A stretch of 64,000 nt of DNA from positions 5,029,823-5,093,822 of the forward strand of contig NZ_CP036265.1 in NCBI RefSeq assembly GCF_007743815.1. The letters are read 5' to 3'. Each line of letters begins with the position of its first letter. The first letter of the stretch is position 1. Below are positions 43,340 through 48,875 of the stretch, in pieces. The notes under the pieces are model-generated. The model was not told the origin of the DNA. It did no database searches and saw only the letters and a program-made list of their open reading frames with translations. The translations under genes were made by a program, and so were the position numbers. This DNA is from Alienimonas californiensis. GTDB lineage: Bacteria > Planctomycetota > Planctomycetia > Planctomycetales > Planctomycetaceae.

Positions 43340-46009
43340 ATGAAGACCGACGACCTCCGCGCCGCCTACCTCGACTTCTTCGAGGCCAAAGGCTGCGTCC
43401 GCCGCCCCAGCGATGTGCTCGTCCCCAAGGACGACCCCACCGTGCTGTTCACCCCCGCCGGGATGAACCAGTTCAAGGCGGAGTTCCTCGGCCTCGGCAA
43501 GCCGGACTTCAAATCGGCCGTCACCAGCCAGAAGTGCCTGCGCACCGGCGACATCGAGAACGTCGGCGTCACCGCCCGGCACCACACGTTCTTCGAGATG
43601 CTGGGCAATTTCTCGTTCGGGGATTACTTCAAACGGGAGGCGATCCACTGGGCGTGGGAGTTCCTCACCTCCAAAAAATGGCTCGGGATGAACCCGGACG
43701 AGCTGAACGTCACCGTCTACGAGGAGGACGACGAAGCCGCCGGCATCTGGGCGAACGAGATCGGCCTGGAGCAGGCCCGCATCCGCCGGCACGGGGAGCA
43801 CGACAACTTCTGGCCCGCCGGCGCCCCCACCAACGGCCCGGACGGCGTCTGCGGCCCGTGCAGCGAGATCTTCCATCACCCGGGGGGCTTCGACCCGGCG
43901 AAGGAAGGAACTGAGATCTGGAACCTCGTGTTCACCCAGTTCGAGCGGAAGGGCGCCCCGCCGGACAACCTGATCCCCCTGCCGGCGAAGAACATCGACA
44001 CCGGCATGGGCCTGGAACGCACCGCCGCGGTGCTGCAGGGCGTGAAGGCGAACTTCGAGATCGACACCCTCCGCCCGCTCTGCGACGCCGCCGCGGAGGC
44101 CGTCGGCGTGCCCTACGACTACGACGCCAAAACCGGCCGCCCCGTCCGCCGCATCGCGGACCACGCCCGGGCCGTGGTGATGGCCGTGCACGAAGGCGTC
44201 CGGCCGGGCAACTCGATGGCAGAGTACGTGGTCAAACAGCTCCTCCGGCGGGCCTCGCTGGAGGGCTACCTGCTGGGCCGGACCGAGCCGTTCCTGTACT
44301 CGCTGGTGCAGCCGGTCGTGGACAGCCTGAAGGCCGCCTACCCGGAACTCACGCAGACCGTCGCCAGCACGGTCGACACGGTGAAGGCCGAGGAGGAACG
44401 CTTCCTCTCCACCGTCGACCGCGGGATCAAACGCTTCGACCGGGCTGTCGAGGCGGCCCAGCAGCAGGGCGCGAACGCCATCGACGGCGACGCCGCCTGG
44501 GAACTGCACGGCACCTACGGGGTGCTGGTCGAGATGACCGAGGCCCTCGCCGCCCGGCACAACCTCTCCGTGGACCGCCAGCGGTTCGAGGAGCTGCGGT
44601 CCGAGCACGAGAAGACCAGCGGCACCGGCGCCTTCGCGGACAGCGTGATGGCTGCCGGCCCGATCGACGCCGTCAAGAAGGAGCACGGCGAAACCGTGTT
44701 CCTCGGCTACGACGCCACCGAAGCCGACGCCACGATCCTCGGCGTGATCGCCCAGGGCCGGCTGGTCCCCACATTGGACGAGGTCGGCCACGCCGAGCCG
44801 GTCGGCCTGATCCTCGACCGCACCCCCTTCTACGCCGAGGCCGGCGGTCAGGTGGGCGACGTGGGGTCGATCATGTCGGACGGCATGCGGTTCCGCGTGT
44901 CGGACACCCAGAAACAGGGCGGGCTGACGGTGCACCTCGGGCATCTCGAAGCCGGGTCGCTGACGGCCGGGGCGAACGTGCAGGCCGCCGTCGACGCCGA
45001 CCGCCGGGCGGCCATCCGGCGGGCGCACTCCGCCACGCACCTGCTCCATCACGCCCTGCACGAGACGATCGGCAAGGACGCGACCCAGCGCGGCAGCGTG
45101 GTCGAGCCGGACCGGCTGCGGTTCGACTTCGCCCACCGGCAGGCCGTCACCCCGGCGGAGCTGGAAACGATCGAGGACCGCATCAATTTGCGGGTGATGG
45201 AGGGCTCGTCGATCGACACGAACGAGATGGACCTCGCCGAGGCCAAAACGCTCGGCGCCATGATGCTGTTCGGCGAGAAATACCCGGACCGCGTGCGGGT
45301 GGTGAACGCCGGCGGGTTCAGCATTGAGTTCTGCGGCGGCACGCACGCCACGAACACCGGGCAGCTGGGCCTGTGCCGGATCGTCAGCGAGGAGAGCGTC
45401 GGCACCGGCGTGCGTCGCATCACGGCGGTGACGGGTCCGCGGGCGATCCGCGAGGCCCGGGAAGCCGGGGCCGTGTTGAAGCAGGCGACGGACCTGTTGA
45501 AGGCCGGCAAGCCGGAGGAGTTGCCGGGCCGGGTGACGGCGTTGCAGGAGGAATTAAAGGAGGCCCGCAAACAGCTCGCCGCCGCGACCGCCAAAAGTGC
45601 CGCCGGCGGGGCCGACGAACTGTTGGCGCAGGCCGAAACGGTCACACTGCCGGACGGCACGACGGCGAAGATCATCGCCCACGACCTGAACGGCGCCCCC
45701 CGCGAGGCCCTCCGCACGCTGGCGGACACGCTCCGCAAGAAGGGCGAAGCGGCCGGCACCCCGGTCGCGGCGATCCTCGGCACGGTCGTCGACGGCAAGG
45801 TCGCCCTGCTGGCCGCCGTCAGCCCGGCCCTGGTCAAGCTCGGCGTGAAGGCCGGCGACGCGGTGAAGGTCGCCGCCCAAGAGGTCGGCGGCGGCGGCGG
45901 CGGCCGCCCGGACTTGGCGGAGGCGGGTGGCAAGCGGCCAGAGTTTCTAGAGCAGGCCCTGAAAAAGTCGCACATCCACATCCGGAATAGTTGCGAGTCG
46001 GTCAAGTGA
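43340..46009 (+). CDS. alaS: Alanyl-tRNA synthetase
   Basis: 889 aa from ATG 43340. Class II catalytic core: [60 protein letters not shown]. The editing/zinc region has HSATH (H563, H567) and CGGTH (C665, H669). The C-Ala domain ends in [15 protein letters not shown]. After the usual end (FLEQAL) the frame continues about 15 residues as [15 protein letters not shown], in DNA whose composition already resembles the foreign segment. The original stop may have been lost at an insertion junction. Function should be unaffected. A much longer open frame upstream overlaps the PDZ gene and is not real. Confidence 0.96.
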
Positions 46010-46041
46010 GCGAGTGTCACTGCAAACTCAACTGAGCAATA

Positions 46042-47028
46042 TCAGTTCCAAGTTGAGAACGCATCACTCACATCGACGTCCGCCGCATTCCCGTAACCTT
46101 TAAGCGTCACCCCGGGCGGGGGTGATATGTGAACATGATGATGGCGAACCGCACCATCCGCGTTGTTTGTCACGTAGGCCGTCTCGATATACCGATCGAC
46201 AACTGCCAGAGGGACATCGACGAATCCGTCGTCGCCCATTATGAATACAAAATCGGCACAGCCAACACCCTTCGCCGCGACATATGACGCGGGGCTAATC
46301 CCATACCAATAGACCTGCTGCCGTTCGTGAAGTTTTGACTGCTGAACCTTCACGACACGCCCGTCTTCTAACGCGTAGCATTTAAGCTTTCGGCTTATCA
46401 TTTCCCCTCCCCCAAGCTGCTCCACAGCGTCGAAAACTCCCGTTCCGGAGGATTCCTCGGGGGTAGTAGCGACAACCGGAGCGTTCTTGTCCGGAGAATA
46501 GTATTCCGCCGACCCGTTCACGAGAAACTTCTTGACGCGATAGATCTCTGTCGGGACGTCCAAGGCGTCACAGAAGTCTTCAAGATCCTGATTCACCTCA
46601 TCGATACATATAGCGATTGACGGGGCGACTGATTCGATAAACAGCTCCAGCTTCTGAAACAGCCGCGTTGGCGCAGCACCGAGTGCACTCGCGACTTCGA
46701 CCTGGCGCCCGCCTTCTTCGACAGCCTCAAACAGTTTGTCCCTGAGCTGCCGCAGCGTTCCAGCGTTTCTCCCTGCAACTACAAATCGAGTGATTTGTTC
46801 CGCAATGTGAGGCCAAACGCCGTGACCCAGTAGCTCACACTCAAGTATCCACCACGTTCTACTTTGAAAGTTAAAGGCAAAGCCGTCCGGAACCCCATGC
46901 TTCCCTGAGGGTGTCGTGATACGAAACCCGGGTATCAATAGGCAGTCGCCGAAGAAGACGGTTGCATTCTCGTAAACCCAGTCCTGCAGTTCCTGCTCAC
47001 GTGAAAACGGTGCTTCAGTGATCGCCAT
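46042..47028 (-). CDS. Uncharacterised protein with PD-(D/E)XK nuclease-like N-terminal domain, foreign origin
   Basis: 328 aa, ATG 47028 preceded 7 nt earlier by AAGGAG. Residues about 10-90 resemble a restriction-endonuclease-like fold: REQELQDWVYENATVFFGD (E20), GKHGVPDGFAFNF (D48) and WWILECELLGHGVWPHIAEQI (E63-x-E65), i.e. PD...ExE with Glu where Lys is usual. The HGVWPHIAEQITRF helix recalls uncharacterised island-borne families with a VELxxH..PQ motif. The middle (100-170) is helical; the C-terminal half (SRKLKCYALEDGRVVKVQQS) may bind a ligand or target. No signal peptide. A defence or conflict role is inference from fold and context. Convergent with alaS. Confidence 0.7.
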   Translation of the reverse strand: MAITEAPFSREQELQDWVYENATVFFGDCLLIPGFRITTPSGKHGVPDGFAFNFQSRTWWILECELLGHGVWPHIAEQITRFVVAGRNAGTLRQLRDKLFEAVEEGGRQVEVASALGAAPTRLFQKLELFIESVAPSIAICIDEVNQDLEDFCDALDVPTEIYRVKKFLVNGSAEYYSPDKNAPVVATTPEESSGTGVFDAVEQLGGGEMISRKLKCYALEDGRVVKVQQSKLHERQQVYWYGISPASYVAAKGVGCADFVFIMGDDGFVDVPLAVVDRYIETAYVTNNADGAVRHHHVHISPPPGVTLKGYGNAADVDVSDAFSTWN

Positions 47029-47035
47029 CAGCGGA

Positions 47036-47041
47036 CTCCTT
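47036..47041 (-). promoter_or_regulatory. Strong Shine-Dalgarno AAGGAG for the foreign gene
   Basis: On the minus strand AAGGAG ends 7 nt before ATG 47028. Upstream, 47058-47070 is AT-rich (TTTAATAATAAC on the minus strand) and could hold the -10. Almost no other gene in the window has such a site, which supports foreign origin. Confidence 0.7.
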
Positions 47042-47084
47042 CAAAGGAACAATCAGAGTTATTATTAAAGATTGACGGTAGTGT

Positions 47085-47290
47085 AGCCAGGCGGGTGGCT
47101 GGCACAGAAGGGAGGGAGACGATAGCCGACTGCCCGGATGTCCCAGAACCAGCGGTGCCCGATCGGCGGGGTGGTGCTAGCACCCTGCCGGTGCGTTCGG
47201 TTGGGATCGAAAGCGGGGGACATCGGGAAGGCATCCACGTCACACTCACCGGCGAGACGCCAGTGGCACGCCAGCGGGTGTGGCCGCCGG
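47085..47290. repeat. Repeat-derived intergenic segment (cluster of short palindromes)
   Basis: The 348-bp gap 47029-47376 has no credible gene in this part. It contains the 12-bp perfect palindrome GGTGCTAGCACC (47173-47184). It also contains an imperfect hairpin in CACCGGCGAGACGCCAGTG near 47249 (7 of 8 pairs around an AGA loop) and GCCAGGCGGGTGGCTGGC near 47088. Palindromes of this style are familiar from planctomycete intergenic DNA. It borders the foreign island and may be a mosaic of old dispersed repeats. Confidence 0.45.
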
Positions 47291-47376: not shown

Positions 47377-47793
47377 ATGGCCACGGAGACAAGTTCCCTC
47401 GCCCGGCGATGGTTCGAGGAGGTCTGGGTTCAACGCCGGGCCGAGACCATCGACGAACTGGTCGACGCCGACAGCGTCTGCCATGGCGACGACGGGCCGG
47501 TCCAGGGGCCGGACGGCTTCAAGCAACAATTCTACGAGCCGATGGTGGCCGCCTTCCCCGATCTGCAGGTGCAGGTCGAGGCGGTCATCGCGGAGGGCGA
47601 TCAGGCGGTCGTCCGCTGGAGCGCCGTCGGCACGCACTCCGGCGACGGGCTCGGGTTCCCGGCGACCGGCGAGGCGGCTTCCTTCCGCGGCCTCACCTGG
47701 ATGCAGGTCCGCGACGGCCGACTCGGCGTGGGTTGGCAAAGTTCCAACATCCCGGAGGTCCTCCGCACGCTGGCGGAGAAGGCCAATCCGTGA
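47377..47793 (+). CDS. SnoaL-like / polyketide-cyclase-fold protein
   Basis: 138 aa from ATG 47377, a single NTF2-like cone fold. SLARRWFEEVWVQRRAETIDELV, then the conserved VQGPDGFKQQFYEPMVAAFPDLQVQVEAVIAEGDQAVVRW series (shown in pieces across the domain), TGEAASFRGLTWMQVRDGRL and WQSSNIPEVLRTL. This is the ester-cyclase-related group. The small-molecule substrate is unknown. A longer open frame starting at 47095 would translate the repeat-rich region and is rejected. Confidence 0.85.
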   Translation: MATETSSLARRWFEEVWVQRRAETIDELVDADSVCHGDDGPVQGPDGFKQQFYEPMVAAFPDLQVQVEAVIAEGDQAVVRWSAVGTHSGDGLGFPATGEAASFRGLTWMQVRDGRLGVGWQSSNIPEVLRTLAEKANP

Positions 47794-47829
47794 CGGCCGG
47801 GCGGGCTCCGCACGCCGCATTGCCTTCAA

Positions 47830-47914
47830 TACCAGCCCGATGCGCAAGCATCGGCCGTCGGCGCAGCCGGCGAGCCGAACGACGCACCGCCGGAGCTTGC
47901 GCTCCGGGCTGGTA
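47830..47914. repeat. Nested palindromic repeat with paired hairpins (REP-like)
   Basis: The outer arms TACCAGCCCG and CGGGCTGGTA are perfect reverse complements. Inside the left arm is a hairpin, CGATGC-GCAA-GCATCG (47839-47854); inside the right arm is CCGGAGC-TTGC-GCTCCGG (47890-47907). The two hairpins are also complementary to one another except at two dinucleotides, changed so that each local stem stays intact. It sits between convergent genes (SnoaL and CHAD). The style matches REP/BIME-type elements moved by RAYT transposases; no such gene is in this window. Confidence 0.75.
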
Positions 47915-47939
47915 CCGCTCCGGTCAGCCGAAGCACGCT

Positions 47940-48875
47940 CTATTCCCGCCAAGCCTCCCACGCGGCTTCCAAGCGGCCGGTGAAGGCCTTCGGCTTCTCG
48001 GCGAGCAGCGTTTCGCCCAGCGTGAGGGACTCCGCCCGCAGGGCCTCCTGAGAGCCGTGCAGCAGGCCGTGGAGGACTTCGCGCTGGCGGGGGTCGTGGG
48101 CCGGGGGGTCGGGGGCGTCGAGGACGGTCGCGGCGTAGACCGTCAGGTCGTGCTCGTGGCCCAGCAGATCCGACAGCCGGACCGCCTCGTCCCGGCGGGG
48201 GCCCAACGCTTCCGGCCAGACGTCGCGGAGCAGCCGGAGGTGGTAGCGGTGGTACTTCGCCCGCTTTCGCCACTGGTGGAACTGCTGGGGAGTCGGCCGG
48301 TCCACGGCGGCGGCCATCGATCTGCGGGCCCGCTTGTAGGTTTTGGCGAAGCCGCCGGCGAGGGCGTCGAAGCCCTCTTCCTTCAACGTCCAACTGTCGA
48401 CGCGGTCGCGGACCGTTCGCAAATCGGCCCCAGCGGCGGCGAGGCGCTCGGAGACGGGGGGGCCGGCGTCCAGGCCATCCGGCTCGATGGCTTCGAGTTC
48501 TTTGCGGTGACGGGTCAGGGCCGCCCGTACCGGGCCGAACGCCCGGCGCTGGACGAAATCCTCATAGCGGTCCATCAGGCGGTCGTGCGTTTCGATCACG
48601 GCCGTCGCGTCCCGCAGGGCGGAGAGCCGCCGGGTCGCGTCGCGGACGGCGGCGTTCTCCTCGGCGTACCCGCCGAACGCCGGCCGCACCAGGCGGAGCA
48701 GCGCCCGCAGCTTCTTACCCCGCTTGCGGACCTCGTGCACGGCCTCGGCGAGGTCGGCGTCCGCAGGGCCGCCGGCGGCGCCGTCGACCTCGGCGAGGGC
48801 CTTGTCGAGTTGTTCCCGGGCGATCCGCCGCAGACCGTCGGCGACGGGTTCGTTCGGTTCGAACTGGAAACTCAT
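47940..48875 (-). CDS. CHAD-domain protein
   Basis: 311 aa, two CHAD helical-bundle repeats. The conserved histidine/basic helices are visible: LAEAVHEVRKRGKKLRALLRLVRP in the first half and FHQWRKRAKYHRYHLRLL in the second, with LSDLLGHEHDLTVY. CHAD proteins bind polyphosphate granules through these basic surfaces and often pair with CYTH enzymes; a CYTH gene lies at 39437-40054. No signal peptide. ATG 48875 begins MSFQFEPNEPVADGLRRI, the usual opening. Divergent from the PL7 lyase. Confidence 0.92.
   Translation of the reverse strand: MSFQFEPNEPVADGLRRIAREQLDKALAEVDGAAGGPADADLAEAVHEVRKRGKKLRALLRLVRPAFGGYAEENAAVRDATRRLSALRDATAVIETHDRLMDRYEDFVQRRAFGPVRAALTRHRKELEAIEPDGLDAGPPVSERLAAAGADLRTVRDRVDSWTLKEEGFDALAGGFAKTYKRARRSMAAAVDRPTPQQFHQWRKRAKYHRYHLRLLRDVWPEALGPRRDEAVRLSDLLGHEHDLTVYAATVLDAPDPPAHDPRQREVLHGLLHGSQEALRAESLTLGETLLAEKPKAFTGRLEAAWEAWRE

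Follow-up and report, generated by a model that had tools for sequence, protein, structure and literature searches.

A compositionally foreign segment at the 3′ end of alaS

We analysed a 64,000-nucleotide stretch of the Alienimonas californiensis genome (the window; G000:C1:5029823-5093822, in a genome of 5,475,215 bases on one contig), in which the gene for alanyl-tRNA synthetase, alaS, runs into about 1.15 kb of DNA of markedly different composition. This segment (45935-47088) holds the last codons of alaS and a single further gene, a candidate solitary nuclease, which lies between alaS and a SnoaL-domain gene. The genes and signals concerned are listed below, in window coordinates; G001 denotes the sister species that served as the same-genus comparison.

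43340..46009, plus strand: alaS (alanyl-tRNA synthetase), an open reading frame (ORF) of 889 codons, host-like up to 45934
45935..46009, plus strand: foreign-looking alaS tail, 24 codons plus stop, recognised by an identity break, a drop in guanine-plus-cytosine content (GC) and a weak resemblance to alanyl-tRNA synthetase (AlaRS) tails
46042..47028, minus strand: candidate solitary restriction-type nuclease of 328 amino acids (the cargo gene), an ORF with no family match
47036..47041, minus strand: AAGGAG ribosome-binding-like site, 7 nt before the ATG
47042..47088, minus strand: AT-rich leader, the final part of the foreign segment (GC 0.30 in 47040-47079)
47377..47793, plus strand: SnoaL-domain gene, the right flanking orthologue (Pfam SnoaL, 7.7e-26; 68% protein identity to G001)

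The GC content was 53.2% in 45932-47088 and 71.1% across the rest of the window, in line with a reading of the sequence alone (the sequence-only reading) that had described a fall from about 70% to about 50% over about 1.1 kb. The lowest 900-base stretch (GC 0.534) lay 6.3 standard deviations under 1220 stretches outside the segment, whose minimum was 0.633. The tetranucleotide distance was maximal at 46001, where it reached 0.64, with 0.46 as the highest value outside, making this the strongest outlier in the window; sliding-window GC and tetranucleotide profiles, both of which that reading had proposed to consult, single out the same segment as the extreme. Its statement that the island holds one gene also held, since one ORF fills the segment and no further frame, even a remnant, was noticed across 45935-47088.

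The left border could be placed to the codon by comparison with G001. Identity between the two genomes, counted per 25 bases, was 19-25 up to 45934 and then 9, 12 and 8, with the break at the Lys codon that follows Ala-Gly-Gly of alaS; both genomes break at this same codon. The proposed insertion against the 3′ end of alaS was therefore correct in position, but its start has to be moved to about 45935, inside alaS and not after it. The insertion thus lies at the 3′ end of a conserved gene, the end of which is kept in frame.

The C-terminal region of alaS gave matches in 36 of 37 genomes, and the tails of 22 genomes of the family were compared, G012 being left out because its contig ends before the motif. 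The two largest drops in tail GC belonged to G001 (-0.24) and G000 (-0.21), followed by G004 (-0.16) and G002 (-0.13). A GC drop alone is no proof, because these last two genomes carry native-like tail peptides. The tails of G000 and G001 have 4 of 22 residues in common, and scored 0.5 and 2.9 bits, respectively, against a profile of 20 native tails, whereas native tails scored 22.7-54.3 bits when left out in turn (G004, 49.0; G002, 53.9). The score of the G000 tail was attained by 75 of 100000 shuffles, and that of the G001 tail likewise. Because both scores are far under the native range and yet rare among shuffles, the two tails appear faintly AlaRS-like but non-native. In G000, the GC at third codon positions (GC3) was 0.95 over the 100 codons preceding the tail, and that of the tail was near the lowest in the gene (13 of 846 windows as low at 22 codons and 2 of 842 at 24); in G001, it was the lowest (0 of 756 windows as low). 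A donor search across 392 genomes of the phylum scanned 29 loci in other genomes and found no close match among the 12 tails recovered, the remaining loci comprising 2 pattern matches off target and 15 without a pattern match.

Different cargo in the same slot of two species

In G001, the interval between the orthologues of alaS (88% protein identity over the part searched) and the SnoaL-domain gene holds a different 424-aa ORF with a GC of 0.54. This gene was identified as SduA (Shedu), with a match over nearly the full PADLOC model (PDLC00389, E 2.7e-120) and to Pfam SduA_C (8e-16). On the right, homology between the two genomes returns at about 47303, at 73% identity. SduA of G001 had no match in G000, and the window gene had a single match among 59 close relatives, its own genome. 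With neither gene matched in the other species, the slot swaps cargo and is hotspot-like. Inspection of the alaS-SnoaL interval in the relative, which the sequence-only reading had singled out as informative, revealed a different low-GC gene and not the same one; the outcome which that reading had named as contrary to it, one gene of host-like composition shared by all close relatives, did not arise. The insertion hotspot that it had suggested is supported insofar as the same flanks hold different cargo in G000 and G001, an interpretation that rests on two genomes of one genus. Matches to G001 SduA occurred in 7 of the 392 phylum genomes, each confined to the C-terminal nuclease part.

The region 3′ of alaS was examined in 22 relatives (G012 has no sequence there), and among those downstream regions none besides G001 had both a non-native tail and a large fall in GC. 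In G013, a 705-aa ORF with a GC of 0.53 (L047 3356-5473) is convergent with alaS and has no Pfam or PADLOC match; it was discounted as a further case, the alaS tail there being native-like.

The cargo gene and its relatives

The AAGGAG motif that the sequence-only reading had placed 7 nt upstream of the cargo-gene ATG is present. The AT-rich promoter it had described was borne out as an AT-rich leader but not as a promoter-like site, because a simple sigma-70 scan found none in the leader and its sole match lay inside the gene. The cargo gene has a GC3 of 0.58. Its protein matched no family of Pfam, PADLOC, NCBIfam or PHROGs at E<=1, and no entry of the PDB at E<=1 by sequence; a profile search of the PDB gave one chance-level match (E 1.9). 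No relatives were found in three single-protein pattern scans of viral contigs, nor in plasmids or phages.

Relatives were sought in 59 close relatives, 392 phylum genomes and 397 class genomes (G000 is within each sample, and G316 was counted in both the phylum and class samples), and their distribution was patchy, at 6 of the 392 phylum genomes and 11 of the 397 class genomes, G000 counted in both. Full-length relatives were found in G729 (63% identical), where the gene is preceded by a CN_hydrolase gene, in G556 (51%) and on L002 (45%), the last among assembled genome contigs, on a contig that begins 140 bp upstream of the gene. Several relatives are AT-rich for their place, with GC values of 0.37 (L002), 0.46 (G096), 0.49 (G729), 0.50 (G543), 0.51 (G556) and 0.52 (G316).

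Genome contexts were examined for 12 relatives besides the window's (those of G626 and G678 were left out), with neighbours assigned by eye and some of them scanned. The G556 relative starts 12 bp past the stop codon of a gene for a class II synthetase, called lysS from its sequence (Pfam tRNA-synt_2 (D, K and N), 4.5e-86). The last 20 codons of this lysS have a GC3 of 0.65 versus 0.98 in the preceding 60, below all 507 windows that do not overlap the tail; over its last 10 codons, total GC is unremarkable, with 29 of 537 windows as low within this one genome. The longest direct repeat around the G556 gene was 8 bp, obtained without a control, and is not claimed. As for other neighbours, a relative in G371 (L042 6532-10973) that bears a RAMA domain has a Type IIG MmeI-like restriction-methylation gene at a distance of about 0.6 kb, and an integrase-like frame recognised by eye is found about 1.1 kb from a short relative on L043 (9001-9711).

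Two modules and the nuclease reading

The cargo protein divides into two parts with separate affiliations.

46459..47028, minus strand: residues 1-190, the N-terminal part, with a PD-(D/E)XK-like motif (Asp48, Glu63-x-Glu65; alignment A1)
46048..46437, minus strand: C-terminal module, residues ~198-327, common to GmrSD-type enzymes

The PD-(D/E)XK signature consists of an acidic residue followed by E-x-K, or a variant of it, on neighbouring strands, and E-x-E is found in active members such as BamHI. In alignment A1, Asp48 is conserved in all 7 sequences and the ExE pair in 5 of the 7, which constitutes motif evidence only. In five relatives (G316, G371, G575, G724 and G543), the N-terminal part is followed by a RAMA domain above the Pfam cut-off, a likeness to RAMA-domain restriction-associated proteins, although the window protein itself has no RAMA match in Pfam. 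The C-terminal module sits behind GmrSD_N and GmrSD_C in G600 and G619, the G600 protein being 31% identical to the window module over 157 positions. These two proteins resemble GmrSD Type IV enzymes and carry the module as a C-terminal extension, whereas the window protein has neither GmrSD_N nor GmrSD_C; the best PADLOC names for the GmrSD-type relatives were Orf5, HEC-06 and mREase_IV. On L109 (5876-7993) and L110 (141-1796), GmrSD-type proteins were seen with the extra C-terminal module of the window gene, in a region where no Pfam family is assigned.

The window gene is most likely a single-chain restriction-type nuclease, and the cargo is probably a DNA-cutting enzyme that would protect against invading DNA. 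Because both halves are joined to restriction modules elsewhere, we suggest a PD-(D/E)XK-like cutting domain in the N-terminal part and, in the C-terminal part, an exchangeable sensor module that would choose the DNA to be attacked. Modified DNA is perhaps the target, since relatives carry RAMA at that place and the module recurs in GmrSD-type Type IV enzymes. With Shedu, a PD-(D/E)XK nuclease defence in the parts of the literature consulted (PMC12137116, PMC12948488), the window gene has in common that it is a solitary gene whose product is probably a defence nuclease, and the two occupy the same slot in different species. The window protein differs from SduA in having no match to SduA_C / DUF4263 in Pfam and no profile similarity; kinship with SduA was rejected at an hhalign probability of 1.4%.

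Three observations tell against the nuclease assignment. It rests on the motif, with no Pfam or PDB match to place the fold; AlphaFold models built from two-row alignments were unusable (pLDDT, the predicted local distance difference test, 36.1 and 42.7); and the ExE pair is lost in the short relatives on L043 (9001-9711) and L045 (8759-9484), which have Asn-x-Thr instead and are possibly inactive. Each would suit a cargo that is foreign but has no part in defence, its nuclease look being superficial or the protein inactive. We regard such a cargo as quite unlikely, given the conservation of the motif residues in the alignment, the RAMA and GmrSD partners of the relatives, and the occupation of the same slot by SduA in G001.

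Border repeats and the route of arrival

The repeats found around the segment are of two sorts: an 11-bp direct repeat, the right copy of which runs into a dispersed element, and dispersed repeats of kinds frequent in this genome.

45921..45931, plus strand: left copy of the 11-bp direct repeat AGGCGGGTGGC, inside alaS
47089..47099, plus strand: right copy of AGGCGGGTGGC, its last 7 bases being the first 7 of the dispersed element at 47093
47093..47162, plus strand: left half of a dispersed inverted-repeat element, whole copies of which measure 131-138 bp
47251..47271, plus strand: 21 bases identical in G001 and in the same order, the first shared bases right of the slot and part of a dispersed-repeat end
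47829-47914: REP-like (repetitive extragenic palindrome-like) repeat, from a repeat search of the genome

An exact repeat of 11 bases was equalled in none of 100 shuffles of the G000 sequence, and with two mismatches allowed, 1 of 100 shuffles reached 15 bases. The repeat has 9 copies in the 5.5 Mb genome, compared with 22 for the reversed control. The half element at 47093-47162 has three other copies (L038, L039, L040), 80-86% identical, and its end motif GGGTGGCTGGGGCAG gave 11 genome matches, including that in the window, with three facing pairs among them (the reversed control gave 0). A genome-wide search with 47770-47960 listed 63 matches, itself included, some of which are both strands of one place. 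The repeat-rich DNA that the sequence-only reading had noted after the island includes the half element and the REP-like repeat. The right border in G001 contains GGCGGGTGGC, and the alaS copy in that genome differs. Right of SduA (L046 5695-6165), G001 has nested elements, the outer with 24-bp inverted repeats; the inner, which interrupts the outer's left end, carries 16-bp inverted repeats together with GGTGGCACTG, a 10-bp direct repeat that resembles a target duplication. A tRNA or known RNA gene as the insertion target was ruled out, none having been found in the window.

As the earlier reading had remarked, no transposase or integrase was visible: Phage_integrase (E<=0.001) and Y1_Tnp, the only transposase family scanned, were not found in the window. 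Four matches to Y1_Tnp, a family that mobilises REP repeats, lay above the cut-off in G000, and Phage_integrase (E<=0.001) was also not found on the alaS contig of G001.

We consider the best explanation, with a probability of about 0.6 for the whole, to be that the segment 45935-47088 was acquired horizontally as a single unit and is docked in the alaS 3′ end. Carrying one gene, it would supply a replacement alaS tail that keeps the synthetase complete, and the slot would serve in this genus as a docking address for solitary anti-DNA nucleases, here a restriction-type enzyme and in the sister species SduA. Arrival would most likely have been by recombination at the conserved 3′ end of alaS, through an integrase acting in trans, an integrase since lost, or homologous exchange of tail and cargo. 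The segment is likened to a site-specific integrative element but is not classed as one, because an integrase is missing. In favour of the explanation stand the shared codon of the break with the two largest tail GC drops, the different cargo between common flanks, the 11-bp repeat, the patchy relatives, several of them AT-rich, the restriction-associated partners of both halves, the neighbours of the relatives in G371 (Type IIG) and G724 (integrase-like), the position of the G556 relative after lysS, and the lysS precedent in Streptococcus. Composition, junction, exchanged cargo, altered tail, direct repeat and shared modules are observed, whereas nuclease activity, a role in defence and the route of recombination are inferred.

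A number of findings weigh against this explanation. With one mismatch allowed, 14 of 100 G000 shuffles reach 11 bases, and 7 of the 11 bases of the right-hand repeat copy belong also to the dispersed element. To the right of the repeat, nothing recognisable as a native alaS tail was seen. Direct repeats in G001 did not rise above shuffles (97, 34 and 46 of 100 at 0, 1 and 2 mismatches). The nearest Phage_integrase match lies about 320 kb away, serine integrases not having been searched. The comparison within the genus is limited to one genome, G001; two relatives, in G390 and G416, do not stand out from their genomes as AT-rich; and a synthetase gene is adjoined in 1 of the 12 contexts, that of G556.

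The missing integrase and the lack of a repeat in G001, together with the faint AlaRS-likeness of the tails, are what plain homologous exchange would leave: related bacteria would have cargo downstream of alaS, and crossovers in conserved alaS sequence would pass tail and cargo between them with no site-specific enzyme, the 11-bp repeat being a chance match. This route is rather unlikely in our view, as the two genomes break at a single shared codon, beside a repeat with 9 genome copies, the right flanks are just 73% identical and hence poor for interspecies recombination, and the 12 tails recovered from the 29 scanned loci pointed to no donor. Integrase-site anatomy without an integrase might also be a remnant, left where a larger integrase-bearing element entered alaS long ago and deletions spared one gene, independently in each species. 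A RAMA-bearing relative in G724 (L112 1080-7612) fits this picture: a gene encoding a phage-integrase SAM-like domain lies 1.1 kb away from it, and past that gene is an HTH_17 gene. Two decays to exactly one nuclease-type gene at one codon are, however, less likely than a mechanism that moves single genes, and the segment retains no visible trace of further frames; we hold a remnant to be unlikely.

Relation to known systems and significance

The closest parallels found, each taken here from part of the cited source, share some but not all of these properties. In Streptococcus, tyrosine-integrase elements insert at the lysS 3′ end; their repeats measure 13 or 17 bp, and the protein is altered very little (PMC4701971). 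Those integrative and conjugative elements resemble the segment in their synthetase 3′-end target, short direct repeats (11 bp here) and changed protein tail, and differ from it in that the segment is about 1.15 kb long, carries a single gene, lacks both an integrase and transfer genes, and targets alaS (PMC4701971). A limited-depth survey of the literature on synthetase genes as targets found no case of alaS as an integration site. Mapped defence hotspots of Escherichia coli, with islands of at least 10 genes on prophages, integrative and conjugative elements, transposons and integrase-only islands, likewise combine a fixed core-gene address with variable defence cargo, but the islands are multi-gene, in contrast to one gene per species in the slot (PMC10121019). 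The Vibrio parahaemolyticus recA insertion is also low in GC, lies in a conserved gene and brings a new copy of the interrupted function, yet it spans about 30 kb and 19 ORFs, has a phage-type recombinase and supplies a whole recA rather than a tail (PMC4334540). The exchange of defence cargo at a fixed core-gene site is already known; what is new is the integrase-less one-gene form at alaS and the unnamed nuclease-like family.

A broader generalisation is speculative and, in our estimate, improbable as a whole. Synthetase 3′ ends (those of alaS in one genus and of lysS in a different family) might be recurrent docking addresses in planctomycetes for integrase-less one-gene defence cassettes that bring their own tail and are moved by recombinases in trans, and the window gene might be the founding member of a new family, single-chain restriction nucleases with interchangeable sensor modules (RAMA or GmrSD-associated).

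The borders of the segment are exact enough for testing. Since the cargo is unnamed in Pfam, NCBIfam, PADLOC and PHROGs and each half is attached to restriction modules in other proteins, a new solitary restriction enzyme has here a concrete candidate. If the preferred explanation is true, a slot that exchanges single nuclease genes together with the tail of an essential gene, and with no mobility gene visible, would show defence genes moving one at a time.

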